Part shown: one piece after another, positions 5,974 to 22,134 of the stretch
How positions within the stretch are numbered: the first letter of the stretch is position 1
Layout: each line of letters starts with the position of its first letter
IMG/VR virus record: IMGVR_UViG_3300044807_000032
Location: 1 to 32,595 of that record
Strand: one strand, 5' to 3'
DNA from: a virus
Length of the DNA stretch: 32,595 nucleotides
The notes under the pieces: model-generated
Told to the model about the DNA's origin: nothing
Seen by the model: the letters and a program-made list of their open reading frames with translations, nothing else
Database searches by the model: none
Made by a program: the position numbers and the translations under genes

Positions 5974-6440
5974 TGTCCGTGCTCGGCAACGCGCAGTCCA
6001 TCAAGGGGGCCAACGACTTCCTGGCCCTGTCGAAGCGGCTCAAGGCGGCCGGCGAGAAGGGGCTGCGGAACGAGCTCAACAAGGTGATGCGGGATGCCGC
6101 GAAGCCGCTGATCCCGAAGGTGCGGGAGGCGGCACGCACCAGCCTGCCCAAGCATGGTGGGCTGAATGAGCGGATCGCCAAGAAGCCCTTGCGCGCGCAG
6201 ACCCGCACCGGTGCCCGCACTGCCGGCGTGCGCATCGTGGGCAGCAAGGTCGACCCGCGCATCAACAATGAGGGCCGCGTCTACCACCCGGTGTTCGGCA
6301 ACAAGCCGGGCGTCGTGCAGCAGGTGCCCGCCGCCAAGGGCTACTTCGACGAGACTCTCGCCAACGAGGGCCCCGGAATCCGCGGGGAAGTGCTGGGCGC
6401 CTTCGGCGGGTTCGTCGAGCGTCTGGTCCGGGGCCTGTAG
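5973..6440 (+). CDS. HK97 gp10-like tail component
   Basis: A 155-residue basic protein beginning at ATG within the TGATG overlap with the T stop; a GTG three bases earlier is also possible. It starts with a helical half (FLALSKRLKAAGEKGLRNEL, NKVMRDAAKPLIPKVREAAR) and then short strands with YHPVFGNK near the middle and a C-terminal helix. That order resembles the HK97 gp10 / tail completion family, in which a helix and basic strands are followed by a G-x-Y-H-P-x-F-G motif. These usually sit before the tail tube gene, so its place between chaperone and tape measure is atypical. The function is inferred. Confidence 0.6.
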   Translation: MSVLGNAQSIKGANDFLALSKRLKAAGEKGLRNELNKVMRDAAKPLIPKVREAARTSLPKHGGLNERIAKKPLRAQTRTGARTAGVRIVGSKVDPRINNEGRVYHPVFGNKPGVVQQVPAAKGYFDETLANEGPGIRGEVLGAFGGFVERLVRGL

Positions 6441-9424
6441 TGGCGAACCTCAGTCTCGTTTTCGACCTGCTCGCCCGGGACAATGCTTCCGGCCCGTTCA
6501 AGAACGTCGGCAACGCCGCGGAACGGGCGGGCCAGCAGACGTCGAAGTTCGGCACCGCCATGTCCGGGGCGTTCAAGCTCGCGTCCGGCGCGCTGCTGGG
6601 CGCGGGTCTCGTCGAGGGCTTCAAGGCGCTGTACAACGCGGCGGATGAGTCGCGGAAGATCGCGGCCCTCACGGCTCAGGTCATCAAGTCGACCGGTGCG
6701 GCCGCGAACGTTTCCGCGAAGCAGGTCGGCGACTTGGCGTCGGCGATCGCGAAGAAGACCGGCGTCGACGACGAGGCAATCCAGTCCGGTGAGAACCTGC
6801 TGCTGACGTTCACCAACGTTCGCAATCAGGTCGGCAAGGGCAACGACGTCTTCAGTCAGGCCACCAAGGTTATGACCGACATGTCGGTCGCCCTGGGCAC
6901 CGATGCGTCCGGCTCGGCGATCCAGCTCGGCAAGGCGTTGAACGACCCGATCAAGGGCATCTCCGCGCTGCAGCGGGTGGGTGTGTCCTTCACGGCGGCG
7001 CAGAAGGAACAGATCAAAACCCTCGTCGAGACGGGCGACACCCTCGGCGCGCAGAAGATCATCCTGGCCGAGCTCAACAAGGAGTTCGGCGGCGCCGCGG
7101 AGGCTGCCGCGACCCCTCTCGGGAAACTGCAGCAGCGGCTCGGTGACGTGGCCGAGCAGGTCGGCGGCTACCTGATTCCCGCTGTCGACAAGGCCGCGAC
7201 GTTCTTCAACGACAAACTGCTGCCGGCCTTCTCCGACATCGGCTCGACGGTTGCGGGTGTGGTTATCCCCGCGCTTCAGGGTCTCGCGGCGACAGTCGGA
7301 GCGGTGGCGGGTGCGTTCAACGCGCTGCCGGGGCCGTTGCAGGCGGGTGTGATCGCGCTCGGGGCGTTCGCTCTGCTCAAGGGCCCGGTTGTGGGTGCGA
7401 TGGAGACTTTCGCGCTCAAGGCGCTGTACATGAAGGACGCCTTCATCAACGCGGGCTCCGGTTTCGGGGGGTTGAAGGCGGCAGGCTCGGGGCTCCTCGG
7501 ATTGTTCGGTGGGCCGTGGGGTCTGGCGCTTGCCGGCGCGACCATTGCTGTCGTCGGCATCAGTTCTGCGATGGAGCGGAGCGCGCAGCGGACCAGGGAT
7601 TGGGCGCACGCCCTTGCAGAGGGTGGGGCGGCGGCCCGTCAGGCGACCGAGGACATGCAGAAGGCCCCCGGCGTCTGGGACCGGTTCGGGTTCGCGTTGA
7701 CCCACGCTGGTGACAGCGTCGGGGTCGTCGGCCAGCAGACTCGCGAGGCGAAGCAGGCGCTCGAGGACTACCGCGCCTCGTTGGACCCTGTCGCTGAGGC
7801 GCAGTCTCGCGTCACCGAGTGGACGAACACACTGTCTGACCGGCTGGTCAACGGCAAGGTCACGACCGAGGATGCCCGCACCGCACAGGAGCGCCTGGCG
7901 TACTGGACGGATGTGCTCGCCAATCGGCAGTCGAACCTGAAGGACGCCGTTGCTGGGGCTACCGCCATCACCAAATCGTTCGAGCAGCAGACCAAGGACG
8001 CCCGCGACGCTCTGGACCAGGCCAAGACCGCAACCGATGACTTCAAGTTGTCGCTGGACATGCTCAGCGGTGCGAACGTCTCGGCTATCGAACTCGAGTC
8101 GCGGTTCCAGGCTGCGCTGGACGCGGCCGACGGCGCGCTGAAGAACCTGAGCGGCTCCGCGCTGAACGCCTCGGGCGACCTCGACTTGCAGTCTGAGGCC
8201 GGTCGCAAGGCTGCCGACGTGCTGCTGGACGTCCGCAACAGCGGCAACGACCTGATCGCCACAATGATCCAGCAGGGCGCCACGACGGATCAGGTGCAGG
8301 CCAAGGACGCAGAACTTAGGCAGTCGTTCCTCAACACTGCCGCGCAGATGGGTATCACCGGCCAGAGCGCCGAGACGCTTGCCAACAAGATCCTCGGCAT
8401 CCCCGGCGAGCGCGTTACGACCATCACGGCGGACACCGGTCGGGCGACGACGGCGGTCGCAAACATCCAGACGCAGATTGACCTCCTTCACGGCCGCACG
8501 GTCACGATCGACGTGGTGACGGCCAAGGCCAATGTCGGCATCCCGTCTGGTTCCGCGCCGGGGTTCGCCTTGGGCGGCTACACGGGCGACGGGGCCAAAT
8601 TCACGCCCGCTGGCGTGGTACACGCAGGCGAGTTCGTGTTCACCAAGGAGGAGACTGCCAAGGCCGGCGTCGGGCGGCTGTCGGCGCTGGCGAAGTCCCT
8701 GCGCGGCTATGCGACCGGCGGGGTCGTGGCGCCAGTGAGCATCCTGGCGGAGCTCGACACTCGCACTTACGAGTCGCAGATGAACGCTGCTGCCAACCAG
8801 GTGGCCAAGGACCTCGAGCCGGTAACGGGGCTGATTGGTGCCCTGAGCTGGGCAAGGTCTCAGGTCGGCAAGCCCTACATCTGGGGCGGTGTCGGGCCGG
8901 CCGGGTATGACTGTTCGGGCTTCATGTCGGCGATCACGAACTATATCCGCGGGCGGTCGCCGCACTCCCGGGTCGGGTCGACTGCCAACTTCCCGTGGGC
9001 CGGATTCACTGGCGGCGACGGACTGTTCACGATCGGCTCGACGGCGAACGCGGGCGGCGGCATCGGCCACATGGCCGGGACGCTGCTCGGTGTCAACGTG
9101 GAGTCGACGGGCGACCATGTGCGGGTCGGCGGGGATGCTCGCGGCTCATCCAACGGCCTGTTCGGTACCCGCGCGCACCTGGCGATGGCCGGCGGCGGCG
9201 TGATCGGTGAGCCGGTGTCCGGGATCGGGCACTACTCGGGCCGGTCGTACTCCTTCGGCGAGAAGGGCCCGGAGACGGTGACTCCGGGGCTGCCGTCGAG
9301 CGGGCCCATGGACTTGTCCGACGCGACGATCAACCGTCTCGCTGCCGCGATGCTCCGCGGGGCTGGCGCCGTTGTGAGATCCGACAGCGACCGTCGCGGC
9401 ATCGACAGCAGGAGTTGGCAGTAA
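6440..9424 (+). CDS. Tape measure protein with NlpC/P60-like peptidase domain
   Basis: The longest gene, 994 residues, starting at GTG one base before the previous stop ends. The first part (to about 250) is alanine-rich helical with the family's MSGAFKLASGALLGAGLVEG and AFALLKGPVVGAMETF hydrophobic stretches; the middle is coiled-coil. Near 700-770 it has the usual tape-measure end motif GYTGDGAKFTPAGVVHAGEF. Residues about 805-905 form an NlpC/P60-like hydrolase: GKPYIWGGVGPAGYDCSGF with Cys825 and GIGHMAGTL with His877, the expected Cys-His pair. The end repeats the YSFGEKGPETVTP motif. It sets tail length and probably opens peptidoglycan during DNA entry. Confidence 0.92.
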   Translation: MANLSLVFDLLARDNASGPFKNVGNAAERAGQQTSKFGTAMSGAFKLASGALLGAGLVEGFKALYNAADESRKIAALTAQVIKSTGAAANVSAKQVGDLASAIAKKTGVDDEAIQSGENLLLTFTNVRNQVGKGNDVFSQATKVMTDMSVALGTDASGSAIQLGKALNDPIKGISALQRVGVSFTAAQKEQIKTLVETGDTLGAQKIILAELNKEFGGAAEAAATPLGKLQQRLGDVAEQVGGYLIPAVDKAATFFNDKLLPAFSDIGSTVAGVVIPALQGLAATVGAVAGAFNALPGPLQAGVIALGAFALLKGPVVGAMETFALKALYMKDAFINAGSGFGGLKAAGSGLLGLFGGPWGLALAGATIAVVGISSAMERSAQRTRDWAHALAEGGAAARQATEDMQKAPGVWDRFGFALTHAGDSVGVVGQQTREAKQALEDYRASLDPVAEAQSRVTEWTNTLSDRLVNGKVTTEDARTAQERLAYWTDVLANRQSNLKDAVAGATAITKSFEQQTKDARDALDQAKTATDDFKLSLDMLSGANVSAIELESRFQAALDAADGALKNLSGSALNASGDLDLQSEAGRKAADVLLDVRNSGNDLIATMIQQGATTDQVQAKDAELRQSFLNTAAQMGITGQSAETLANKILGIPGERVTTITADTGRATTAVANIQTQIDLLHGRTVTIDVVTAKANVGIPSGSAPGFALGGYTGDGAKFTPAGVVHAGEFVFTKEETAKAGVGRLSALAKSLRGYATGGVVAPVSILAELDTRTYESQMNAAANQVAKDLEPVTGLIGALSWARSQVGKPYIWGGVGPAGYDCSGFMSAITNYIRGRSPHSRVGSTANFPWAGFTGGDGLFTIGSTANAGGGIGHMAGTLLGVNVESTGDHVRVGGDARGSSNGLFGTRAHLAMAGGGVIGEPVSGIGHYSGRSYSFGEKGPETVTPGLPSSGPMDLSDATINRLAAAMLRGAGAVVRSDSDRRGIDSRSWQ

Positions 9425-11892
9425 TGGCGGTCGCCTCCCCGGTCGACGTCAAGGTCAACCCGAACGACGCGACGCAGCGGTACATCCTGTGGGGCAACGG
9501 GCGCATTGACGCGATCGGCGGGTTGCCCCCGATCGTCGGTCAGGCCACGTGGTACGACTGGGTGTACCAGCCGGTCGCGGTGGCGCTGCAGATCACCAAC
9601 TGGACGACCGGGGCGGGCTACATGCTCGACCTGTATGGGGCGTTCCAGCCGATCAACGGTGCCCCGGCGGTGGGCACCGGCGGGATCATGGGCGGCGTCC
9701 CCTACAACAACCCGGCCACGGGCCCCGGTGGGCCGCTGTACATCGACTGGGCGTGGAACACGAACGGGTCGACGCAGGGCTACGTGCTCGACCAGTACGG
9801 GCAGACGTACCCGTTCGGTGGGGCGACACCGCTGCCGCGGACCGGCCCGAAGTGGTCGTGGCCGGCGGCGCTGAAGTTGCAGATGCGGTTCACCCCCGAC
9901 GTCCGTGGCGTGATCATGGATGTGCGGGGCGGTCTGCACGGCGAGGGTGCGGTGTCGTCGTTCGGGAGTCTCGGCAACTCGTGGCCGACCGCGAACAACG
10001 CCCGTGACTTCGGGGTCACCGACTGGACCGCGCCGTCCGGCTACAAGCTGGACCTGTTCGGCGGCCTGCACGCTTTCGGCACGGCCGTGGTGCCGTCGGG
10101 TTTCCCGTACCGGCCGGGCGCGGACGTGGCCCGCTGCCTGGCGGTGCTGTCGGCATCCAACCCGCTGAAGTTCCTCGAGGTGTGGTCGGGCGGGCAGCAG
10201 TACGAGTTCGTGTCGTCGACCCCGCCGTCGGTGTCGGCCGGGTCGGGCGTCAACGAGATCCAGCAGGTGACGATCGCCGGTACCCCGACGGGTGGCACGT
10301 TCACCCTGACCTATTCGGGGCAGACGACGGCGGCGATCGCCCGGAACGCGACTGCGGCGACGGTGGACACGGCGCTGGAGGCCCTGTCGAACATCGGCGC
10401 GGGCAACGTGTCGGTGGCCGGCGGCCCGGGCCCGTCAACCCCGTGGACGGTGACGTTCACCGGCACCCTGGCGGCCACCAACGTCGCGCAGATGACCTCC
10501 ACGTCTTCGCTGACCGGCGGTACCGGCGGCACCGACGAGGTCCAGACCATCACGATCACGGGTGCGCCGACCGGCGGCACGTTCACTGTCACCTTCGGCG
10601 GCCAGACGACGGCGGCGCAGGCTCGCACCGCGACGGCCGGCACTCTCCAGACGGCACTTCAGGCGCTGTCGTCCATCGGTGCAGGCAACGTGCTGGTGAC
10701 TGGTGGACCCGGCCCCACAACCCCCTACGTGGTGACCTTCGCTGGCGCGCTGGCCAGTTCCGACGTGGCGCAGATGACGGCGGCGCACACCTTCACCGGC
10801 GGCACCACCCCGAACATCTCGGTATCGACCACCACCCCCGGCGTCTCGACTCCCGTGACGGTCACCACCGGCACGTCGGGGGTTGCCACCTCACCGGCGC
10901 CGTCGGTGACGACGACGACCCGCCCCGACCTGACGTGGTCCTACTCGGACCCGCAGTCGGAGTCTCAGGCGGCGTGGCAGCTGTACGTGTTCACGCAGGC
11001 GTTCGCGACCGGGCATGACATGACCGATCCGGCGGTGTGGGCTGCGTCGGCGCTGGTCGCCGAGTCGGGGATCAACCGGTCCACCCGGGGGATCACGTCC
11101 CCGGTCGACCTGGCGAACGGCACCTACCGCATGTATGTGCGGGCGCAGGACACCGCGGGCCTGTGGTCGGCGTGGTCGAACCTGGGTTGGACGCAGGCGA
11201 TCACCCCGCCCGTGACCCCGACGAGCCTGTCCGCGACCGCCAATCAGTCGACGTTCCTGGTGGTCCTGTCGGTGACGGCGACGACGGGCGGTTCGGCGAA
11301 TCTGATCCGCTTCGAGTACCTGGATTCCGACAGCAGCACGTGGCTGCCGGTCCGGGGTGCCGACGCGGTCACTCTCGCCTCGACGACCACGGCCACCGAC
11401 TACGACCCGCGGCTCGGCGTGACGCGCACATACCGTGCCGTCGCCTACGCGATCAACCCGGCCGTGGCGTCCACCCCGTCCACTACTGCGGCGGCGACGA
11501 TCACCGCCGGTCAGCGGCACGTGCTCACCGCGGTCAGCAACCCCGCGCTGGGCGGGGCTGTGAACGTGCAGAACCTCATCGAGTGGTCGCGCCCGGTGGT
11601 GGCCGGCGTCTTCCAGGGCCTCGGCGCCGAGTACGTGACGGTCGTGTCCGACGGGGTGCCGAAGTCGCGGCGGGGTTCGTTGACGCTGGTCGCTCTGGAC
11701 GCCGCGGGCTGGTCACTGATCGAGAACCTGCTGGAGGCGGACAGCATGTTGCTGCACCGCGACCCGCTGGGTCATGCCGTGTACTGCCGGGCGGTCGGCG
11801 ACTGGACTCAGGGTCGGCTGGTGGCGATGGAGAACCTGTACGGCTCCAGTGTGCCGCTGGTCGAGGTGCGTCCCCCAAACCTGGCCACCTGA
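9424..11892 (+). CDS. Minor tail protein, propeller-like start and two 94-residue repeats
   Basis: A 822-residue protein. An ATG at 9424 with AGGAG at 9410-9414 is chosen over a TTG at 9415. Five copies of a G-Y-x-L-D-x-x-G-x-x-x-x-F-G-like motif recur at about residues 19, 65, 119, 162 and 206 (for example GYMLDLYGAFQPI and GYKLDLFGGLHAFG), suggesting propeller blades. Residues 277-464 are two tandem 94-residue repeats. A fibronectin-like segment follows (DLTWSYSDPQSESQAAWQLY), and the last 120 residues, including NLIEWSRPVVAGVFQG, resemble distal tail proteins. It follows the tape measure, so it is a tail-tip protein; the binding target is unknown. Confidence 0.82.
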   Translation: MAVASPVDVKVNPNDATQRYILWGNGRIDAIGGLPPIVGQATWYDWVYQPVAVALQITNWTTGAGYMLDLYGAFQPINGAPAVGTGGIMGGVPYNNPATGPGGPLYIDWAWNTNGSTQGYVLDQYGQTYPFGGATPLPRTGPKWSWPAALKLQMRFTPDVRGVIMDVRGGLHGEGAVSSFGSLGNSWPTANNARDFGVTDWTAPSGYKLDLFGGLHAFGTAVVPSGFPYRPGADVARCLAVLSASNPLKFLEVWSGGQQYEFVSSTPPSVSAGSGVNEIQQVTIAGTPTGGTFTLTYSGQTTAAIARNATAATVDTALEALSNIGAGNVSVAGGPGPSTPWTVTFTGTLAATNVAQMTSTSSLTGGTGGTDEVQTITITGAPTGGTFTVTFGGQTTAAQARTATAGTLQTALQALSSIGAGNVLVTGGPGPTTPYVVTFAGALASSDVAQMTAAHTFTGGTTPNISVSTTTPGVSTPVTVTTGTSGVATSPAPSVTTTTRPDLTWSYSDPQSESQAAWQLYVFTQAFATGHDMTDPAVWAASALVAESGINRSTRGITSPVDLANGTYRMYVRAQDTAGLWSAWSNLGWTQAITPPVTPTSLSATANQSTFLVVLSVTATTGGSANLIRFEYLDSDSSTWLPVRGADAVTLASTTTATDYDPRLGVTRTYRAVAYAINPAVASTPSTTAAATITAGQRHVLTAVSNPALGGAVNVQNLIEWSRPVVAGVFQGLGAEYVTVVSDGVPKSRRGSLTLVALDAAGWSLIENLLEADSMLLHRDPLGHAVYCRAVGDWTQGRLVAMENLYGSSVPLVEVRPPNLAT
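10252..10803 (+). repeat. Two tandem 94-residue (282-bp) repeats in the minor tail protein
   Basis: Copy 1 starts at 10252 (NEIQQVTIAGTPTGGTFTL) and copy 2 at 10534 (DEVQTITITGAPTGGTFTV). Both continue through QTTAA-A-ARxATAxTxxTALxALSxIGAGNV and VAQMT to a closing LTGG or FTGG. The exact 282-bp offset and codon-level similarity indicate a tandem duplication of a beta-sandwich-like domain. Confidence 0.85.
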
Positions 11893-13013
11893 TGCCGTGG
11901 GACTGGTCTGACGCTGCCGCCGCGGCCCTGTTGAGCAGTCACACGGCCGTGTCGCGGGTCGACGTGCTCCATTCGGGGAAGCCCGTCTACACCCTGGAGG
12001 TGACGGACGGGAACGTGAACATCGACGCCGACCGTCCGGTGCGCCGCAACCTGTCGTGCTCCCTCGTCGACTCGACGGGCACCCTGACCCGCGGCGACGT
12101 CGATGACCTGCTGAACCCCTACGAGTGCGAGATCGCACCGCACCGGGGGGTGCGGGTCGTCGGGGTGGACGAGCTCGCCCCGCAGGGTGTGTTCGGCCTG
12201 ACCGGCCGCGACGTGCAGGACTCCCCGGATGGTCTGTCGATCCGGTTGACCGGCCAGGACCGGGCGATGGGCTATCAGGGGCCGATGGTGTCGGCGCTGG
12301 CCATCGACGGCGGGACCGCGGTGGAGAACGCGATCGCCCGGCTGCTGGCGGCACGCAATCCGGGCCTGTCGCTGCTCAGTCTCAGCACCGGGTTCGTGAC
12401 GGGACCGCTGGTGTTCGCCCCCGACATCGACGTGTGGGCGGAGGCGCAGAAGCTCGCCGAGTCGGTGGGTGCGCGGCTGTTCCACGACCGCACCGGTCAG
12501 TGCGCGCTCGCGCTGGCCGGGCCCGGGTCGGATCGGCCGGTGACCACCTATGCGGAGGGTGGCGGGCTGCTGCTGGGCCTGTCGCGGGTGGAGGACTCGG
12601 ACACGATCAAGAACGTTGTGGTCGCCGAGACCCCGGACGGGGCGGTCCGTGCGGTCGCCGAGGACGACGACCCCACCTCCCCGACGTATGCCCGCGGTCG
12701 GTATGGGCGGCGGGTCGCATCCGTGGTCAACCAGCACTTCACGTCCACCGCGCAGGCGTTGCAGGCCGCCACCGTCCGCCTGGCCTACGAACTGGGCCGC
12801 TCGGAGACGGTCACGTTCACCGCCGTTCCTGACCCTGGCCGCGACGTCGAGGAGGTGGTGACGGTGCACCGCCCCCGCGCCGGCCTCGAGCATCGGGGCG
12901 TTGTGATCGCCACCCTCGACGTTCCGCTGTCCGCCTCCGAGTCCATGAAGGTGGGTTGTCGCCAGTCCCGGCTGGCGCAGGACGGCCGCCAGGTCCCGGC
13001 GGGTGACCTGTGA
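11892..13013 (+). CDS. Minor tail protein, hub-like
   Basis: A 373-residue protein with ATG overlapping the previous TGA. The first 120 residues contain paired strands (RVDVLHSGKPVYTLEVTDG, SLVDSTGTLTRGDVDDLLNP) that are typical of actinophage tail proteins of the DUF5047 type, and the middle contains TAVENAIARLLAARNPG. Residues about 175-210, with VWAEAQKLAESVGARLFHD, match the hub domain seen in baseplate and tail-hub proteins. The C-terminus ends with a strand VVIATLDVPLSASESM. Its position after the distal-tail-like protein supports a hub role; it is overlapped by the next gene by 4 nt. Confidence 0.78.
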   Translation: MPWDWSDAAAAALLSSHTAVSRVDVLHSGKPVYTLEVTDGNVNIDADRPVRRNLSCSLVDSTGTLTRGDVDDLLNPYECEIAPHRGVRVVGVDELAPQGVFGLTGRDVQDSPDGLSIRLTGQDRAMGYQGPMVSALAIDGGTAVENAIARLLAARNPGLSLLSLSTGFVTGPLVFAPDIDVWAEAQKLAESVGARLFHDRTGQCALALAGPGSDRPVTTYAEGGGLLLGLSRVEDSDTIKNVVVAETPDGAVRAVAEDDDPTSPTYARGRYGRRVASVVNQHFTSTAQALQAATVRLAYELGRSETVTFTAVPDPGRDVEEVVTVHRPRAGLEHRGVVIATLDVPLSASESMKVGCRQSRLAQDGRQVPAGDL

Positions 13014-17095: not shown

Positions 17096-17452
17096 ATGGC
17101 ACGCACGTCTCAGGCCGCCAGCATCGCTGCCATTCAAGCGGTACTCCCCGCCGCTGGCTCCTGGTGGATCACGCTGACCAACACCGACCCCGGGACGACG
17201 GGTGCGACTGAACTCCCCGGCATCACCCGGCAGACGTTCACCGCGTCGGCGGGCACTGCTGCCGTGCCGTCGGTTGTGTCGAACACGAACGCGATCACCA
17301 TCCCGAACACGGGGGCGACGCAGGCCAACTACTGGGCCATCTACGACGCGGTGACGGCGGGGAACTACCGGACCGGCGGCGCATTGGCCAGCCCCGTGAC
17401 CGCGGCGTCCATCACGGTCGCGGCCGGGGCGATCCAGGTCAGCGGGTCCTGA
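17096..17452 (+). CDS. Gp80-like tail fibre protein
   Basis: A 118-residue beta-rich protein starting at ATG with GAAGGA at 17079-17084. It has the order SIAAIQAVLPAAGSWWITL, LTNTDPGTTGATELPG, ITRQTF, then YWAIYDAVTAGNYRTGGAL and ends in a strand. The TNTDPGTTGATE and YWAIYDA segments are characteristic of Gp80-like phage tail fibre proteins. It begins the post-lysis adhesion block. The downstream gene shares the N-terminal MARTS, so both may dock on the virion by the same first residues. Confidence 0.72.
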   Translation: MARTSQAASIAAIQAVLPAAGSWWITLTNTDPGTTGATELPGITRQTFTASAGTAAVPSVVSNTNAITIPNTGATQANYWAIYDAVTAGNYRTGGALASPVTAASITVAAGAIQVSGS

Positions 17453-17453
17453 C

Positions 17454-17900
17454 GTGGCACGCACTTCGCTCGCCGGCACCAAGGCATCCGGCGCTGCTGC
17501 CGGACCGGTCGTACAGTTCCGCGCGGCCGGTGCCGCCCGGGACGTCCGCGTGTTCGAGATCGGCGTGTTCTCCGCGACCGCGGTTGCCTGCGAGGTCGGG
17601 ATCGGTCGCCCGGCCGCGATCGCTGTCACCCCGGCCACCCCGATCGGTCCGGTCGCGTCGGGTCAGTCGTTCGACAACGTCATGGGCGCGGGTGCTGCCC
17701 TGGTCGACACGACGTGGGGCACGGCACCGACCGTTCCTGCGATCCCGTGGCGGCGGTACCCGATCCCGGCGACCATCGGCGCGGGCATCGTCTGGCAGTT
17801 TCCCGGCGGCATCGTCGTGCCCGCCGCTGGCGCCCTGGTCATCTGGCAGTACAGCGCGTTAGCGGTCACGCTGGATTGGCATTTTGAGATTGACGAGTAG
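17454..17900 (+). CDS. Fibre-associated protein, unknown
   Basis: A 148-residue protein beginning with GTG a base after the previous stop. The N-terminus MARTSLAGTK matches the upstream gene's MARTSQAAS. The rest is a beta-rich stretch: RDVRVFEIGVFSATAVACEV, a GQSFDNVMGAGAALVDT turn, and a hydrophobic end ALVIWQYSALAVTLDWHFEI. The pattern is that of a structural virion protein rather than an enzyme. I recognise no named family with confidence. Its place between a Gp80-like protein and a repeat fibre suggests a fibre or chaperone role. Confidence 0.65.
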   Translation: MARTSLAGTKASGAAAGPVVQFRAAGAARDVRVFEIGVFSATAVACEVGIGRPAAIAVTPATPIGPVASGQSFDNVMGAGAALVDTTWGTAPTVPAIPWRRYPIPATIGAGIVWQFPGGIVVPAAGALVIWQYSALAVTLDWHFEIDE

Positions 17901-17903
17901 CTC

Positions 17904-18869
17904 GTGCCGCTGCTCGGCGGTACGACGGCCGCCACCTATCAGGCGCCCCGCCCGCTAGCTCCCGCAGCCCCGTCGGGCGGCACGCAGATCATCTCCCCGC
18001 CGGCCGAGCAGCCGGTGCCCGCGTCCGGGTCCGGCTCCGTGTCCATCACTGGCAGCGGCACGGCGTCGGCAGCGGCCAGCGGCACGGGCAGTTTCACCCT
18101 CACCGGCACAGCTGCAGCGGCCGGCTCGGTTACCGGTAGCGGCTCGGTTGCCATCTCGAGCTCGGGTGCAGCTTCCGTTGCGGCCACGGGCACCGGCTCG
18201 GTCACGGTCACCGGCACGGCGACGGCACGGGCTGCGGCAGCCGGGGCCGGGACCTTCGCGCTGTCCGGGGCCGGTTCCGCGACGGCGCCGGTCACCGGCT
18301 CGGATGCGGTCACGATCACCGGCACGGGCGCCGCTGCCGTCCCCGCATCCGGTGCGGGCACGGTGACCCTCTCCTCTACCGGGACGGCGCGAGCGGCCAC
18401 TACAGCGGCCGGAACGGTCGCGCTGTCATCGACCGGCGCCGCATCGGCTGCCGCAAGCGGTACGGGTGCGGTCGTCGTGTCCGGGACCGGCTCTGCTGGC
18501 GCCCCATCGTCGTCCGCATCAGGCACCGGTTCGGTGGGTGTCAGCGGGACCGGATCAGCGTCGGCCTCCGCCGCGGGCTCGGGCGTGATCGTCATCGGCG
18601 GGGCCGCCACGGTCGCCGTGTCCGCCAGCGGCACGGGGCTGCTCACGTTGACCAGCCTGGCCACCGCGCAAGCCCTCGGAGCCCTGCCGCCCGCCGCATC
18701 CCACTACGCGGCCAAGCCAGGCGTCTCCCCCGGTTTCGTCACAGCCGGAACGTCGCACGAGTTCGCGGCCAATCCACCCCCCGATCACACCGTGACCGCC
18801 GCCGGGACCTCCCCCCGACTGCACGCCGCCGGCACATCCCACACCTTCACCGCCAACCCTCGGGAGTAG
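17904..18869 (+). CDS. 18-residue-repeat fibre-like protein
   Basis: A 321-residue protein starting at GTG four bases after the previous stop. Residues 1-40 are a proline-rich lead. Residues 41-259 are 12 repeats of an 18-residue unit, with one 21-residue unit, of the form S/T-G-T-G-S-V-x-V-x-G-T-G-S-A-x-A-x-A. Each holds two short alternating strands, which suggests a beta-solenoid or long thin fibre. The C-terminus carries TAGTSHEFAANP and AAGTSHTFTANP, two copies of a different 12-residue motif. Composition is almost only Gly, Ala, Ser, Thr and Val. Its neighbours are fibre proteins and a CotH-like kinase. Function is inferred as an adhesion fibre. Confidence 0.8.
   Translation: MPLLGGTTAATYQAPRPLAPAAPSGGTQIISPPAEQPVPASGSGSVSITGSGTASAAASGTGSFTLTGTAAAAGSVTGSGSVAISSSGAASVAATGTGSVTVTGTATARAAAAGAGTFALSGAGSATAPVTGSDAVTITGTGAAAVPASGAGTVTLSSTGTARAATTAAGTVALSSTGAASAAASGTGAVVVSGTGSAGAPSSSASGTGSVGVSGTGSASASAAGSGVIVIGGAATVAVSASGTGLLTLTSLATAQALGALPPAASHYAAKPGVSPGFVTAGTSHEFAANPPPDHTVTAAGTSPRLHAAGTSHTFTANPRE
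18024..18680 (+). repeat. Twelve in-register 18-residue (54-bp) coding repeats
   Basis: Units begin at codon 41 and recur every 54 bp. Examples are SGSGSVSITGSGTASAAA, TGSGSVAISSSGAASVAA, TGTGSVTVTGTATARAAA and SGTGSVGVSGTGSASASA. Only unit 9 carries a three-residue insertion. DNA identity between units is low while the pattern is kept, so selection acts on the protein shape. Confidence 0.85.
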
Positions 18870-18871
18870 CC

Positions 18872-19783
18872 GTGGCCTTGCAGCTCACCCGCATCGACAG
18901 CACACCGCGCACCTATGCGCTCACCGACCTGTTCACGGCCGGTGTCCCCGCGGGCGTGACCGGCGTCGATGTGGCTCTGCTGCCCAAGGGGAGCAGCGGG
19001 CCGAACGCCGCAACCGTGTGGGTGCCTACCGTCTACGCCAGTGGGTCGTTCAGCGTCCGCTGGGTTGGGCCTGACGCCGATGCCACGGGTGCGACGCTCG
19101 TAGTCCCCGCCAGTGCCGACGCCTGGATACGGATCACCAACCTCCCACAGGTGGCCGCGGTCAAGCTCGAGCGCATCACCGTGCTCGGCGGGTCCGCCAG
19201 CATTGCCGCACCGACCGGCATCCCCGTCATCTCCGTCAACGGGCACACCGGAGCCGCGGTCGTCGTCACCGCCGCCGACGTCGGCGCGGTCGCCACCGGA
19301 TCAGGCGCGGGCGGGGCGCTGTCCGGCACCTACCCCAACCCGGGCCTCAACGCCACGTCCGTCGATTCCGTGGTCGCCGGGAAGGTCAGCACGGTTGGCA
19401 GCGCCACCGAAGTCGCGCTCAGGGCGGACTTTGTCGCCTACGCCGACATCGATCCGGACATCGGCCTCGTCGGCGACTTCATCACCTTCGAGGGCTACCG
19501 TCCGGGCTTCACTGGCGACCTCGAATACCGGCCCACCCCGCTCGGCTGGCAGTTCCAGGGCCGGTTCTGGAAGACCGACGAGACTCCGTTCGCGGACTCA
19601 ATTCACATCTTCGGCGACGCGCCCGCGCTGCACCTGACTAGGGAACACGCCTGGCTCACCACCTCAAACGAGTGGGGCGTGTGCATGGTCTACCTCGGCA
19701 CCGACGAGTCGATGGTGTTCTTCCATCACGCCGCGATCGGCCCCGGGCCCGTACACGTCTTCTTTGAGGGGACTTTCAACTGA
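18872..19783 (+). CDS. Tail fibre protein with VNGHTG linker
   Basis: A 303-residue protein starting at GTG. The first 110 residues are beta-rich and probably a virion-attachment head. At 122-140 the linker VNGHTGAAVVVTAADVGA occurs, followed by GGALSGTYPNPGLNA near 147-161; both are hallmarks of phage tail fibre shafts. The C-terminal 140 residues contain a compact aromatic-rich domain (GFTGDLEYRPTPLGWQFQGR, EWGVCMVYLGTDESMVFFHH) likely to be the receptor-binding head. The next gene begins in an ATGA-type overlap. Confidence 0.78.
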   Translation: MALQLTRIDSTPRTYALTDLFTAGVPAGVTGVDVALLPKGSSGPNAATVWVPTVYASGSFSVRWVGPDADATGATLVVPASADAWIRITNLPQVAAVKLERITVLGGSASIAAPTGIPVISVNGHTGAAVVVTAADVGAVATGSGAGGALSGTYPNPGLNATSVDSVVAGKVSTVGSATEVALRADFVAYADIDPDIGLVGDFITFEGYRPGFTGDLEYRPTPLGWQFQGRFWKTDETPFADSIHIFGDAPALHLTREHAWLTTSNEWGVCMVYLGTDESMVFFHHAAIGPGPVHVFFEGTFN

Positions 19784-20994
19784 TGCGCGGGCGCTACGCG
19801 CTGGTGGAGTTGGGCGGCGTCCCGCAGCGCGTTGATCTCCTCGCACTGCCGAAGGTCACCATCACCACCACCGGCGGCGCGCCGATCGTCAACACCGTGG
19901 ACTACGTCAGCGGCACCATCACCATCACCGGCCGGGGCTCCGTAGCCACCAGGACCACCCAGATCCGTGGCCGCGGCAACACCACCTGGGAAGCGCCGAA
20001 GAAGCCGTACAAGGTGAAGCTCAGCAGCGCGGCATCCCTCGTCCCCGGCGCTCCCAGCGACCGGGACTGGGTGCTCCTCGCCAACTACTACGACCCGTCA
20101 TCGGTACGCACCACCGTGGCGATGGAGCTCGGCGCCCGCTGCACCGGCCTGACCTGGACCCCCCGTTTCCGGCACGTCGAGGTCACGCTCAATGGCGTGT
20201 GGCAGGGCCTCTACCAGCTCGGCGAGCACGTCAAGGTCGCCAGCAACAGGATCAACATCGACAAGCCCGGAAGCGCGACCAGCGGGCTCCCCCTCACCGG
20301 CGGGTACACGCTGGAGATCGATCACCGCATGGGGCCGGGCGAAGGCTTCTATACCCCGCACGACGGCCTCCCCGTCGCCTTCGATGAGCCCGACGGCACC
20401 ACCCCCGCGCAGGCCGCCTACATCGAAGGCTTCGTCGACGCGTTCGAGACCGCCCTGTATGCCGGTGACTGGCTGAACCCGGCCACCGGCTACGCCCGGT
20501 TCATCGACCGGGACTCCTTCATCGACTGGTACCTGGTCAACGAGCTGACCATGAACCTCGACTCGGACTTCTTCTCCTCCTGCAAGCTGTACAAAACCCG
20601 CGACACTGCTGGCAGCCCCGGCCGCCTGCACATGGGGCCGCTGTGGGACTTCGACAACTCGATGGGCAACACCTTCGGCGCCTTCGCCTCCGCCGCCACC
20701 GGCTTCCACACCCGCACGGATCACGGCGTCAACCACCCCGGCGCGACCTGGCTGGTCCGCATGTTCGAGGACCCCGCGTTCGCCGCCGCTGCCTGGACGC
20801 GATGGCAGGCCCTCGCCGCCACCCTCGGCGATGTCGACGAACTGATCGACCGGGCGATGGCCATCAACTGGCCGGCCGCCGCCCGCGACCAGGCGTCGTG
20901 GGGATACACGGCCAAGCGGGAGACCACCGCCCAGCAACTCACCACGTGGCTGACCGCCCGCATCGCGTGGCTGACGGGGGCACTGGAGCCCTAG
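19783..20994 (+). CDS. CotH-kinase-like protein in the fibre block
   Basis: A 403-residue protein with CotH-family signatures. An N-terminal strand region (LPKVTITTTGGAPIVNTVDY) leads to IRGRGNTTWEAPKKPYKVKL (61-80), then DRDWVLLANYYDPSSVRTTV, LGEHV at 146-150, FIDWYLVNELTMNLDSDFF (246-264) and GPLWDFDNSMG (285-295), which matches the family's metal-binding DFD. CotH proteins are atypical kinases; B. subtilis CotH phosphorylates serines of spore coat proteins. No membrane segment or secretion signal is visible. Position just after fibre genes and the overlap with the previous gene suggest a virion or fibre partner. Kinase activity is inference. Confidence 0.82.
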   Translation: MRGRYALVELGGVPQRVDLLALPKVTITTTGGAPIVNTVDYVSGTITITGRGSVATRTTQIRGRGNTTWEAPKKPYKVKLSSAASLVPGAPSDRDWVLLANYYDPSSVRTTVAMELGARCTGLTWTPRFRHVEVTLNGVWQGLYQLGEHVKVASNRINIDKPGSATSGLPLTGGYTLEIDHRMGPGEGFYTPHDGLPVAFDEPDGTTPAQAAYIEGFVDAFETALYAGDWLNPATGYARFIDRDSFIDWYLVNELTMNLDSDFFSSCKLYKTRDTAGSPGRLHMGPLWDFDNSMGNTFGAFASAATGFHTRTDHGVNHPGATWLVRMFEDPAFAAAAWTRWQALAATLGDVDELIDRAMAINWPAAARDQASWGYTAKRETTAQQLTTWLTARIAWLTGALEP

Positions 20995-21809
20995 AACGAG
21001 TCGACCCCGAACCGGACTACACCTGGCCGGCTCGGGGCCGACTTCGCGATGAAGGCGATGCTGTCGTAGATCGACACCCGGGGCACCTGGGCCGCCGCAT
21101 TGACGCCCAGCTTCTCCCCCTCGGGGTGGTACCAGGAGTGCATGTCGTCGACCAGCGTCCTCAGCACCTCGAAGAAGCTGGTCGACCGGCGGTAGCCGCC
21201 ACCGAAGCCTGGCCAGTACATGGTGTGCAGATCCTCCACCGCATACAGGCCGCCGTCGGACAGCAGCGGGAACAGCACATCGAACGACGCCCGCACATGC
21301 TCGGCGCGGTGACTGCCGTCGTCCAGAACGATGTCGACCCCACCCATCTCGGCGACCACCCGCCGCAGGAACTCCGGGTCATCCTGGGAGCCGATGCGCA
21401 CGGGCAGGTCCGGGCTGTCAACCGCGGCCACCTGCGGGTCGACGTCAACGCCGAAGATGATCGCGTCCGGGCCGAAGAACTGACGCCACAGCTGCAGCGA
21501 CCCCCCGTGCTGCACGCCGATCTCCAGCAGCCGCAGCGGGCGAGTGGAGCCGTCCGGCAGCGGGAAGCCTGCGCGGTACGGGGCGAACTGCTCGTCGTAG
21601 GCAGGCAGGTACTGCGTCCACTTGTGGATGGCTCGGCCCTCGTGCGCGAAGAACAGTCGGCCGAACTCGGTGTTGCTGGCACCGGCGGCTAGGGCCTCCT
21701 CGGTCGTCATGGCGAAGTCCGCGATGCGTCCGTCTCCTCCGCGCCCGGCGATCGAGGCCAGCTTTCTGACGACACGGTTGTAGCGGACTCTCTCGACGAG
21801 CGTGGACAC
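20991..21809 (-). CDS. Class I SAM-dependent methyltransferase (CmcI/MycE-like)
   Basis: A 272-residue enzyme on the minus strand. A GTG at 21809 is chosen because AGAAGGG lies just upstream. Motif I is LLEIGVQHGGS (94-104), followed by GVDVDP (120-125), DIVLDDGSH (159-167), VEDLH (191-195) and DDMHSWYHPE (221-230). The paired aspartates and histidines resemble the metal-dependent O-methyltransferases related to CmcI, MycE and TylE sugar methyltransferases. Such enzymes methylate hydroxyls, often on sugars. Its stop interlocks with the CotH stop in CTAG. Opposite orientation and closeness to attP suggest a lysogeny-expressed or cargo gene. Confidence 0.82.
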   Translation of the reverse strand: MSTLVERVRYNRVVRKLASIAGRGGDGRIADFAMTTEEALAAGASNTEFGRLFFAHEGRAIHKWTQYLPAYDEQFAPYRAGFPLPDGSTRPLRLLEIGVQHGGSLQLWRQFFGPDAIIFGVDVDPQVAAVDSPDLPVRIGSQDDPEFLRRVVAEMGGVDIVLDDGSHRAEHVRASFDVLFPLLSDGGLYAVEDLHTMYWPGFGGGYRRSTSFFEVLRTLVDDMHSWYHPEGEKLGVNAAAQVPRVSIYDSIAFIAKSAPSRPGVVRFGVDSF

Positions 21810-21910
21810 AAGCGACCCTTCTCTAGGAATCAGTACGGCGCGCCACCGTAAACCGTTCCAGGTCCGGGCGGCGCCGCAACTCGACCGTTCCAGCCCCACC
21901 CGCACACACC

Positions 21911-21945
21911 GCGCCCCTCGTCTGCCACGTGCAGGCGTGGGGCGC
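21911..21945. terminator. Hairpin left of attP
   Basis: Arms GCGCCCCTCGTCTGC (21911-21925) and GCAGGCGTGGGGCGC (21931-21945) pair over 15 positions with one mismatch and one G-U pair, around a 5-nt loop. It resembles the perfect hairpin right of the core at 22135-22166. There is no T-run. It may end transcription into attP or mark a duplicated terminator. Confidence 0.45.
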
Positions 21946-22001
21946 ATTCGGCGTTTCGGGGTGTTCACCACACGGGCGTGTGTCATACATGTGTCGACAC
22001 A
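21931..22001 (+). repeat. Left copy of attP-flanking direct repeat
   Basis: This stretch aligns with gaps to 22156-22201. Both start GCAGG-TGGGGCGC, continue TTC-GCGTT-CGGGG and contain the exact 12-mer GGGCGTGTGTCA (21974-21985 and 22179-22190), followed by ATGTG and GACAC. The left copy has extra bases before the 12-mer. Such flanking copies are what arm-binding sites of a tyrosine integrase would look like. Confidence 0.6.
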
Positions 22002-22044
22002 GGGCACACGATGTGCTGTGTAGTCAACAGTGACACCTGTAGTA

Positions 22045-22074
22045 GCAGGTCAGAGCAAAGTGGCAGGTCAGAAC
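22045..22074 (+). repeat. 18-bp-spaced direct repeats beside the core
   Basis: GCAGGTCAGAGC at 22045-22056 and GCAGGTCAGAAC at 22063-22074 differ by one base and are 18 bp apart, close to two helical turns. They lie about 10 bp left of the tRNA-derived core. Integrase arm or excisionase binding is the likely role; this is inference. Confidence 0.5.
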
Positions 22075-22084
22075 GAGGCCGTTC

Positions 22085-22131
22085 CTTCCCTGACACGGAA
22101 GAGGTCACTGGTTCGATCCCAGTATCGCCCA
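22085..22131 (+). other. attP core: 3' half of a tRNA-Val(GAC) gene
   Basis: The sequence folds exactly as the 3' half of a tRNA: anticodon stem CTTCC (22085-22089) and GGAAG (22097-22101), loop CTGACAC with anticodon GAC (22092-22094), variable loop AGGTC, T stem ACTGG/CCAGT around TTCGATC (22107-22123), and acceptor strand ATCGCCC plus A (22124-22131). No D-arm or 5' acceptor strand precedes it, so it is not a complete gene. Phages that integrate into tRNA genes carry such a 3' half to rebuild the gene. Integrase is adjacent. The host site is therefore predicted to be tRNA-Val(GAC). Confidence 0.85.
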
Positions 22132-22134
22132 CAC

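Follow-up and report, generated by a model that had tools for sequence, protein, structure and literature searches.

A stand-alone CotH-family protein with a probable kinase-type active site and a likely tail association in a temperate actinophage-like genome

Introduction

Does a CotH-family protein encoded by a phage act, like its namesake of Bacillus subtilis, on a repeat-rich protein encoded close by, or does it serve the virion in another way? The question is raised by a gene in a viral sequence record 32,595 bases long, referred to here as the window, which is a temperate actinophage-like genome of 66-74% GC whose capsid and tail relatives are mostly found, at low identity, in actinobacterial phages. 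The order of its genes is portal (C-terminal part), protease, capsid, connector, tail tube, tape measure, minor tail and lysis; downstream of the lysis genes come the genes at 17096-20994, a convergent methyltransferase, a tRNA-Val, an integrase and the early genes (Table 1). A preliminary description of this DNA proposed that the CotH-like protein, translated with tail-fibre genes, could phosphorylate the product of a nearby Ser/Thr/Gly/Ala repeat gene, a virion-linked kinase-substrate pair not known from phages. With respect to a tested pair this still holds, as we found neither such a pair from phages nor a functional test of a phage CotH in the literature. The domain itself, in contrast, had already been noted: phage genomes were reported to carry CotH kinase domains on occasion, joined to hypervariable lectin domains, and these were described as unstudied (PMC8008677), and CotH domains are among the targets of DGRs (PMC4159848). 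The phage CotH domain is thus already present in databases and literature, and the window protein adds a stand-alone example to an uncharacterised kind.

Table 1. Features of the CotH locus and their positions in the window
Feature	Position	Strand	Remarks
118-aa protein	17096..17452	+	PF23140 podophage fibre gp80 / PHROG 240 'head protein'
148-aa protein	17454..17900	+	relatives in L082 and MW202691, within the head modules
321-aa Ser/Thr/Gly/Ala repeat protein	17904..18869	+	54-nt / 18-aa spaced repeats
303-aa protein, presumed fibre protein	18872..19783	+	no family match; overlaps CotH by 1 nt
CotH-family kinase-like protein, 403 aa	19783..20994	+	ATG start; ORF, Pfam, PHROG, fold
CotH domain, aa 61-397	19963..20973	+	full Pfam model
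K73-K74, aligned to conserved KK of B. cereus CotH	19999..20004	+	K73 in 26/26 homologues
D260, aligned to D of TQNFDGF in B. cereus CotH	20560..20562	+	Asp in 24/26 homologues
D289-F-D291, aligned to WDYD of B. cereus CotH	20647..20655	+	both Asp in 26/26 homologues
SAM-dependent methyltransferase	20991..22007	-	PF13578 / PHROG 21658; convergent with CotH, beside tRNA-Val and integrase
tRNA-Val (gac)	22062..22132		beside integrase

Family, fold and active site

The gene at 19783-20994, whose start overlaps the stop of the upstream gene in the sequence TGATG, encodes a full-length CotH-family protein. The match to Pfam PF08757 (CotH; E 2.2e-37, 129.7 bits against a cut-off of 23.8) covers all 322 positions of the model, and PHROG 6813 is matched with an E value of 1.6e-103. 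Scored with a profile built without the window sequence, the protein reaches 353.8 bits, while the best of 500 shuffles reaches 4.8 bits. Family search detected CotH only, with no FnIII or LamG fusion, and no signal peptide was seen by eye. The AlphaFold model (mean pLDDT 83.8) matches only two PDB entries with E below 1e-3, 5jda and 5jd9, both of which are B. cereus CotH; for 5jda, the structure with Mg/AMP, the TM values are 0.67/0.74 and E is 1.4e-13. The comparison with CotH that the preliminary description had proposed as a check therefore bears out its assignment. Although identity to the B. subtilis and B. cereus proteins is 17%, the fold, the KK, Asp and WDxD motifs and the Pfam CotH domain are common to all of them, and the full-length match, the CotH fold and the active-site Lys and Asp residues place the window protein in the CotH kinase family.

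The signature set read from the sequence beforehand is complete, i.e., IRGRGNTTW (residues 61-69), LGEHV (146-150), NELTMNLDSD (253-262) and GPLWDFDNSMG (285-295), but LGEHV is not a strict signature, its E148 being replaced by Q, D or W among homologues. When a profile made from 26 homologues is aligned with 5jd9, the alignment runs through nearly the whole domain, and the active-site residues are conserved among these homologues (Table 1), non-conservation being what the preliminary description had named as a refutation; the two exceptions at position 260, both cellular, have Glu. D289 and D291 presumably bind metal. In B. subtilis CotH, the D228Q substitution yields a catalytically inactive protein (PMC7821199), and D260 would be the counterpart of D228, a correspondence drawn from the alignment to 5jd9, the motif spacing and PMC7821199, with the B. 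subtilis sequence itself outside the alignment. Judged from its sequence, the window CotH is probably catalytic, with a kinase-type active site that appears intact.

Phage relatives and the link to the tail

Among 50,697 phage records, CotH of the window type was found in 22 Mycobacterium phage records, assigned to Omegavirus wherever the taxonomy line was read, and in four gut contigs. The window protein forms one clade (support 100/99) with that of the actinophage contig L010 and those of Omegavirus (mycobacteriophage cluster J), to which it shows 44-48% identity over the CotH domain, with the same active-site residues. In Omegavirus (Halley gp43, Thibault gp39, and Beem gp43, named 'kinase'), CotH occupies the middle of a protein of 882-907 residues that also contains FnIII and, except in Thibault, LamG; the N-terminus gives a weak match, below cut-off, to the phage-tail-repeat family PF12789, and some records label the gene minor tail protein or kinase. 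This N-terminus is common to CotH-less proteins, and the CotH part occupies a swappable distal position. The window protein belongs to this phage tail kind (PHROG 6813) by sequence family and clade, but it stands alone at 403 residues, without the tail N-terminus or the FnIII/LamG fusion. In L010, a CotH-FnIII-LamG gene lies downstream of minor tail genes. Between Halley and Dove, the CotH domain has a dN/dS of 0.12, which indicates purifying selection, with dS near saturation.

CotH is also found at the end of a contractile-tail baseplate/collar-fibre block in L012, among tail genes and without a signal peptide. It is placed far from the window protein in the tree, on a long branch, and was probably recruited independently, so that CotH in phage tail blocks has at least two separate tree placements. 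Structure search brought up more phage proteins, among them gp353 of Bacillus phage G and one that bears the name CotH kinase protein. The phage CotH proteins fused to DGR-diversified C-type lectins (PMC8008677; PMC4159848) have the CotH domain in common with the window protein, which differs in having no lectin fusion. The two genes that follow gene 37 of Thibault (38 and 39) are described as likely minor tail proteins linked to host preference in PMC3706429; gene 39 is the CotH gene, and we found no mention of CotH in the passages of that paper on the two genes.

Since its clade mates are fused to tail proteins, the window phage, too, is likely to have a CotH module that is associated with the tail and probably catalytic, even though the window copy stands alone. 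The firm tail link comes from these relatives rather than from window genes. The earlier statement that CotH is translated with tail-fibre genes gains from the Omegavirus tail-repeat fusion and from the L012 block; it is weaker in the window, where the genes at 17096-19783 follow the lysis genes and their sole family matches fall on the first gene. The 303-aa protein has no relative among families, phage records or viral contigs, and its single-sequence AlphaFold model (pLDDT 38.8) is unusable; from the motif-like SVNGHTGAAVVVTAADVGA / LSGTYPNP we take it to be a fibre protein. The tail-block forms of CotH have no signal peptide, whereas most bacterial relatives examined appear by eye to have one, and this is consistent with cytoplasmic synthesis and assembly into the virion.

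Natural loss of the module in Redno2

The Omegavirus Redno2, with M. smegmatis mc2 155 as its listed host, matches Halley with 99.8% identity over the 6,404 bases that end at position 9723 of the Halley locus and with 98.2% identity over the 5,572 bases that begin at position 12397. Redno2 lacks the Halley segment between these positions, which contains CotH, FnIII and LamG; the junction shows an overlap of 35 bases, and Redno2 gp42 corresponds to the N-terminus of Halley gp43 joined to the C-terminus of gp44. Because this viable relative does without the segment, the module would be dispensable on M. smegmatis. No partner lost together with CotH is visible in the region compared, nor is any other local change, so no obligate partner is evident. 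The two phages are near-identical here apart from the CotH segment, which makes the role of CotH directly testable in a laboratory host. A convenient pair for comparison is Redno2 (L083) 6001-6552 and Halley (L001) 9320-12579, a clean deletion with near-identical flanks.

Dispensability in Redno2, together with the FnIII/LamG and N-terminal tail parts that the clade mates have and the window copy lacks, could suggest that the window CotH is a degenerate, functionless remnant of a longer tail protein. We consider this hardly credible, as the full-length domain is intact, all catalytic residues are kept and identity to the clade mates remains at the level given above.

The neighbouring repeat protein

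The Ser/Thr/Gly/Ala repeat protein invoked in the preliminary description exists and is separated from CotH by a single gene. This proximity and its composition, with 96 Ser/Thr in 321 residues (30%), could favour its phosphorylation by CotH, as CotH acts on CotB and CotG. These two substrates are, however, rich in Ser, Lys and Arg (PMC7821199), CotG being strongly positively charged (PMC9765600), while Lys/Arg makes up 1.9% of the repeat protein and only 5 of its 96 Ser/Thr lie within three residues of Lys/Arg. B. subtilis CotH is encoded with its Ser/Lys/Arg-rich substrates; a composition scan found no SKR-type stretch in the window, and no neighbouring substrate of the CotB/CotG type accompanies CotH there. 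Nor did it detect a comparable repeat protein near CotH in Omegavirus and the other CotH phages scanned (L001, L002, L005, L010, L011 and L012).

No relatives of the repeat protein were found by tblastn in phages or by a viral-contig scan, both of which are limited by low complexity, and the pairing was probed through the 148-aa neighbour instead. Relatives of the latter occur in L082 (41% identity) and in MW202691 (40%), each within a head module, and in both cases a Ser/Thr/Gly/Ala or Gly/Ala repeat protein is encoded two genes further on. No CotH was detected in either stretch, and MW202691, a complete circular record, is absent from the CotH matches. Similarity of the window repeat to that of L082 (composition-adjusted E 0.001) and to that of MW202691 (E 3.2) is only suggestive of homology. 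With no CotH detected beside the similar repeats of L082 and MW202691 and with so little Lys/Arg, two adjoining cassettes explain the proximity better than a kinase-substrate pair does. The repeat protein as a CotH substrate is thus not supported and highly unlikely, and the survey of related phages for co-occurrence, proposed as a check, points instead to one between such repeats and 148-aa relatives in head modules. The cassette, in which a 148-aa-like protein is accompanied by a short one and by a repeat protein of Gly/Ala or Ser/Thr type, recurs in head modules of different phages, spanning 3022-5998 of L082 and 4926-7527 of L095.

Bacterial relatives

CotH was found in 36 of 395 actinobacterial genomes, and most of the ORFs examined seem, by eye, to begin with signal peptides. 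Secreted or lipoprotein-like bacterial CotH proteins (Amnibacterium L013, Porticoccaceae, Bacteroidota) show about 27-41% identity to the window protein and the same active site; they differ from the phage tail forms in their signal peptides, seen by eye, and no tail context was seen around them. Some bacterial kin carry FnIII-like, Calx-beta-like or cellulose-binding-like parts. In one of the actinobacterial genomes, G347, a capsid relative occurs together with CotH, though on separate contigs. In the actinobacterial protein L041 (G091), a Pro/Ser linker connects CotH to a C-terminal domain that resembles a cellulose-binding module. The four human-gut CotH records deposited as 'Bacteriophage sp.' were not counted as phage cases, and the two that were read fully look bacterial. 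In these two, L007 and L009 (MT836996 and MT836222), the genes look cellular, e.g., glycogen-branching enzyme-like and GGDEF-like.

Proposed function and alternatives

Altogether, our tentative reading, to which we assign a probability of roughly 40%, is that CotH is a catalytically competent CotH-fold phosphotransferase and an optional distal-tail module, phosphorylating itself and/or neighbouring tail-tip proteins. It would be made late with the fibre genes, in a cytoplasm that contains ATP, and would most likely phosphorylate itself and/or its tail-tip neighbours during assembly, a modification that could adjust how the fibres assemble or how the receptor is contacted on certain hosts. The analysis itself shows the family, the fold, the conserved active site, the clade with tail-fused phage CotH and the fact that a viable relative has lost the module; that the protein is present in the window virion, that it is an active kinase and what it phosphorylates are what we infer. 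If active, such proteins would be kinases fixed in the virion that take part in the maturation of the tail or in contact with the host. We found no virion proteomics of a CotH phage in the literature; the virion of Omega was analysed according to PMC3706429, and Omega is not among the CotH matches. Three observations stand against a tail kinase: the nearest bacterial kin look mostly secreted, suggesting extracellular roles where ATP is scarce, Redno2 has lost the module with no obligate partner in evidence, and the window copy has no fused tail domain.

In the main rival account, CotH acts at the surface of the host while the phage adsorbs, either as an adhesin or enzymatically, on glycans or proteins found there, and FnIII and LamG serve as companion binding modules. 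The fusion of both to most Omegavirus copies and to that of L010 would fit this account, as would the swappable distal position behind an N-terminus common to CotH-less proteins, the secreted appearance and accessory parts of the bacterial kin, and the location of the tail genes in a host-preference region according to PMC3706429. On the other hand, a pure adhesin would not be expected to keep its catalytic residues so strictly, little ATP is available outside cells, and no binding domain is fused to the window copy. We regard a host-surface role as possible but somewhat unlikely. A variant in which an active protein (or glycan) kinase in the tail tip modifies host-envelope or fibre molecules during adsorption seems unlikely. 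To our knowledge, no virion kinase activity modifying such molecules at adsorption has been reported. Kinase-fold relatives are also able to carry out other kinds of transfer.

Compared with phosphorylation within the tail tip, a role outside the virion seems quite improbable. CotH would then be lysogen cargo that, together with the convergent methyltransferase near the tRNA-Val/integrase end, alters the host surface in the prophage state. CotH is indeed the last rightward gene before the methyltransferase, tRNA-Val and integrase, and the phage contig L011 encodes a lipoprotein-like CotH outside a tail block. The window CotH, however, is on the same strand as the late-side gene that it overlaps by 1 nt, has no signal peptide that could be seen and has clade mates fused to tail proteins. 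The L011 gene, at 9878-11035 of that contig, lies between DNA polymerase and primase genes. In the window, the methyltransferase is a possible lysogeny gene, and the tRNA-Val is likely to be an attachment site.
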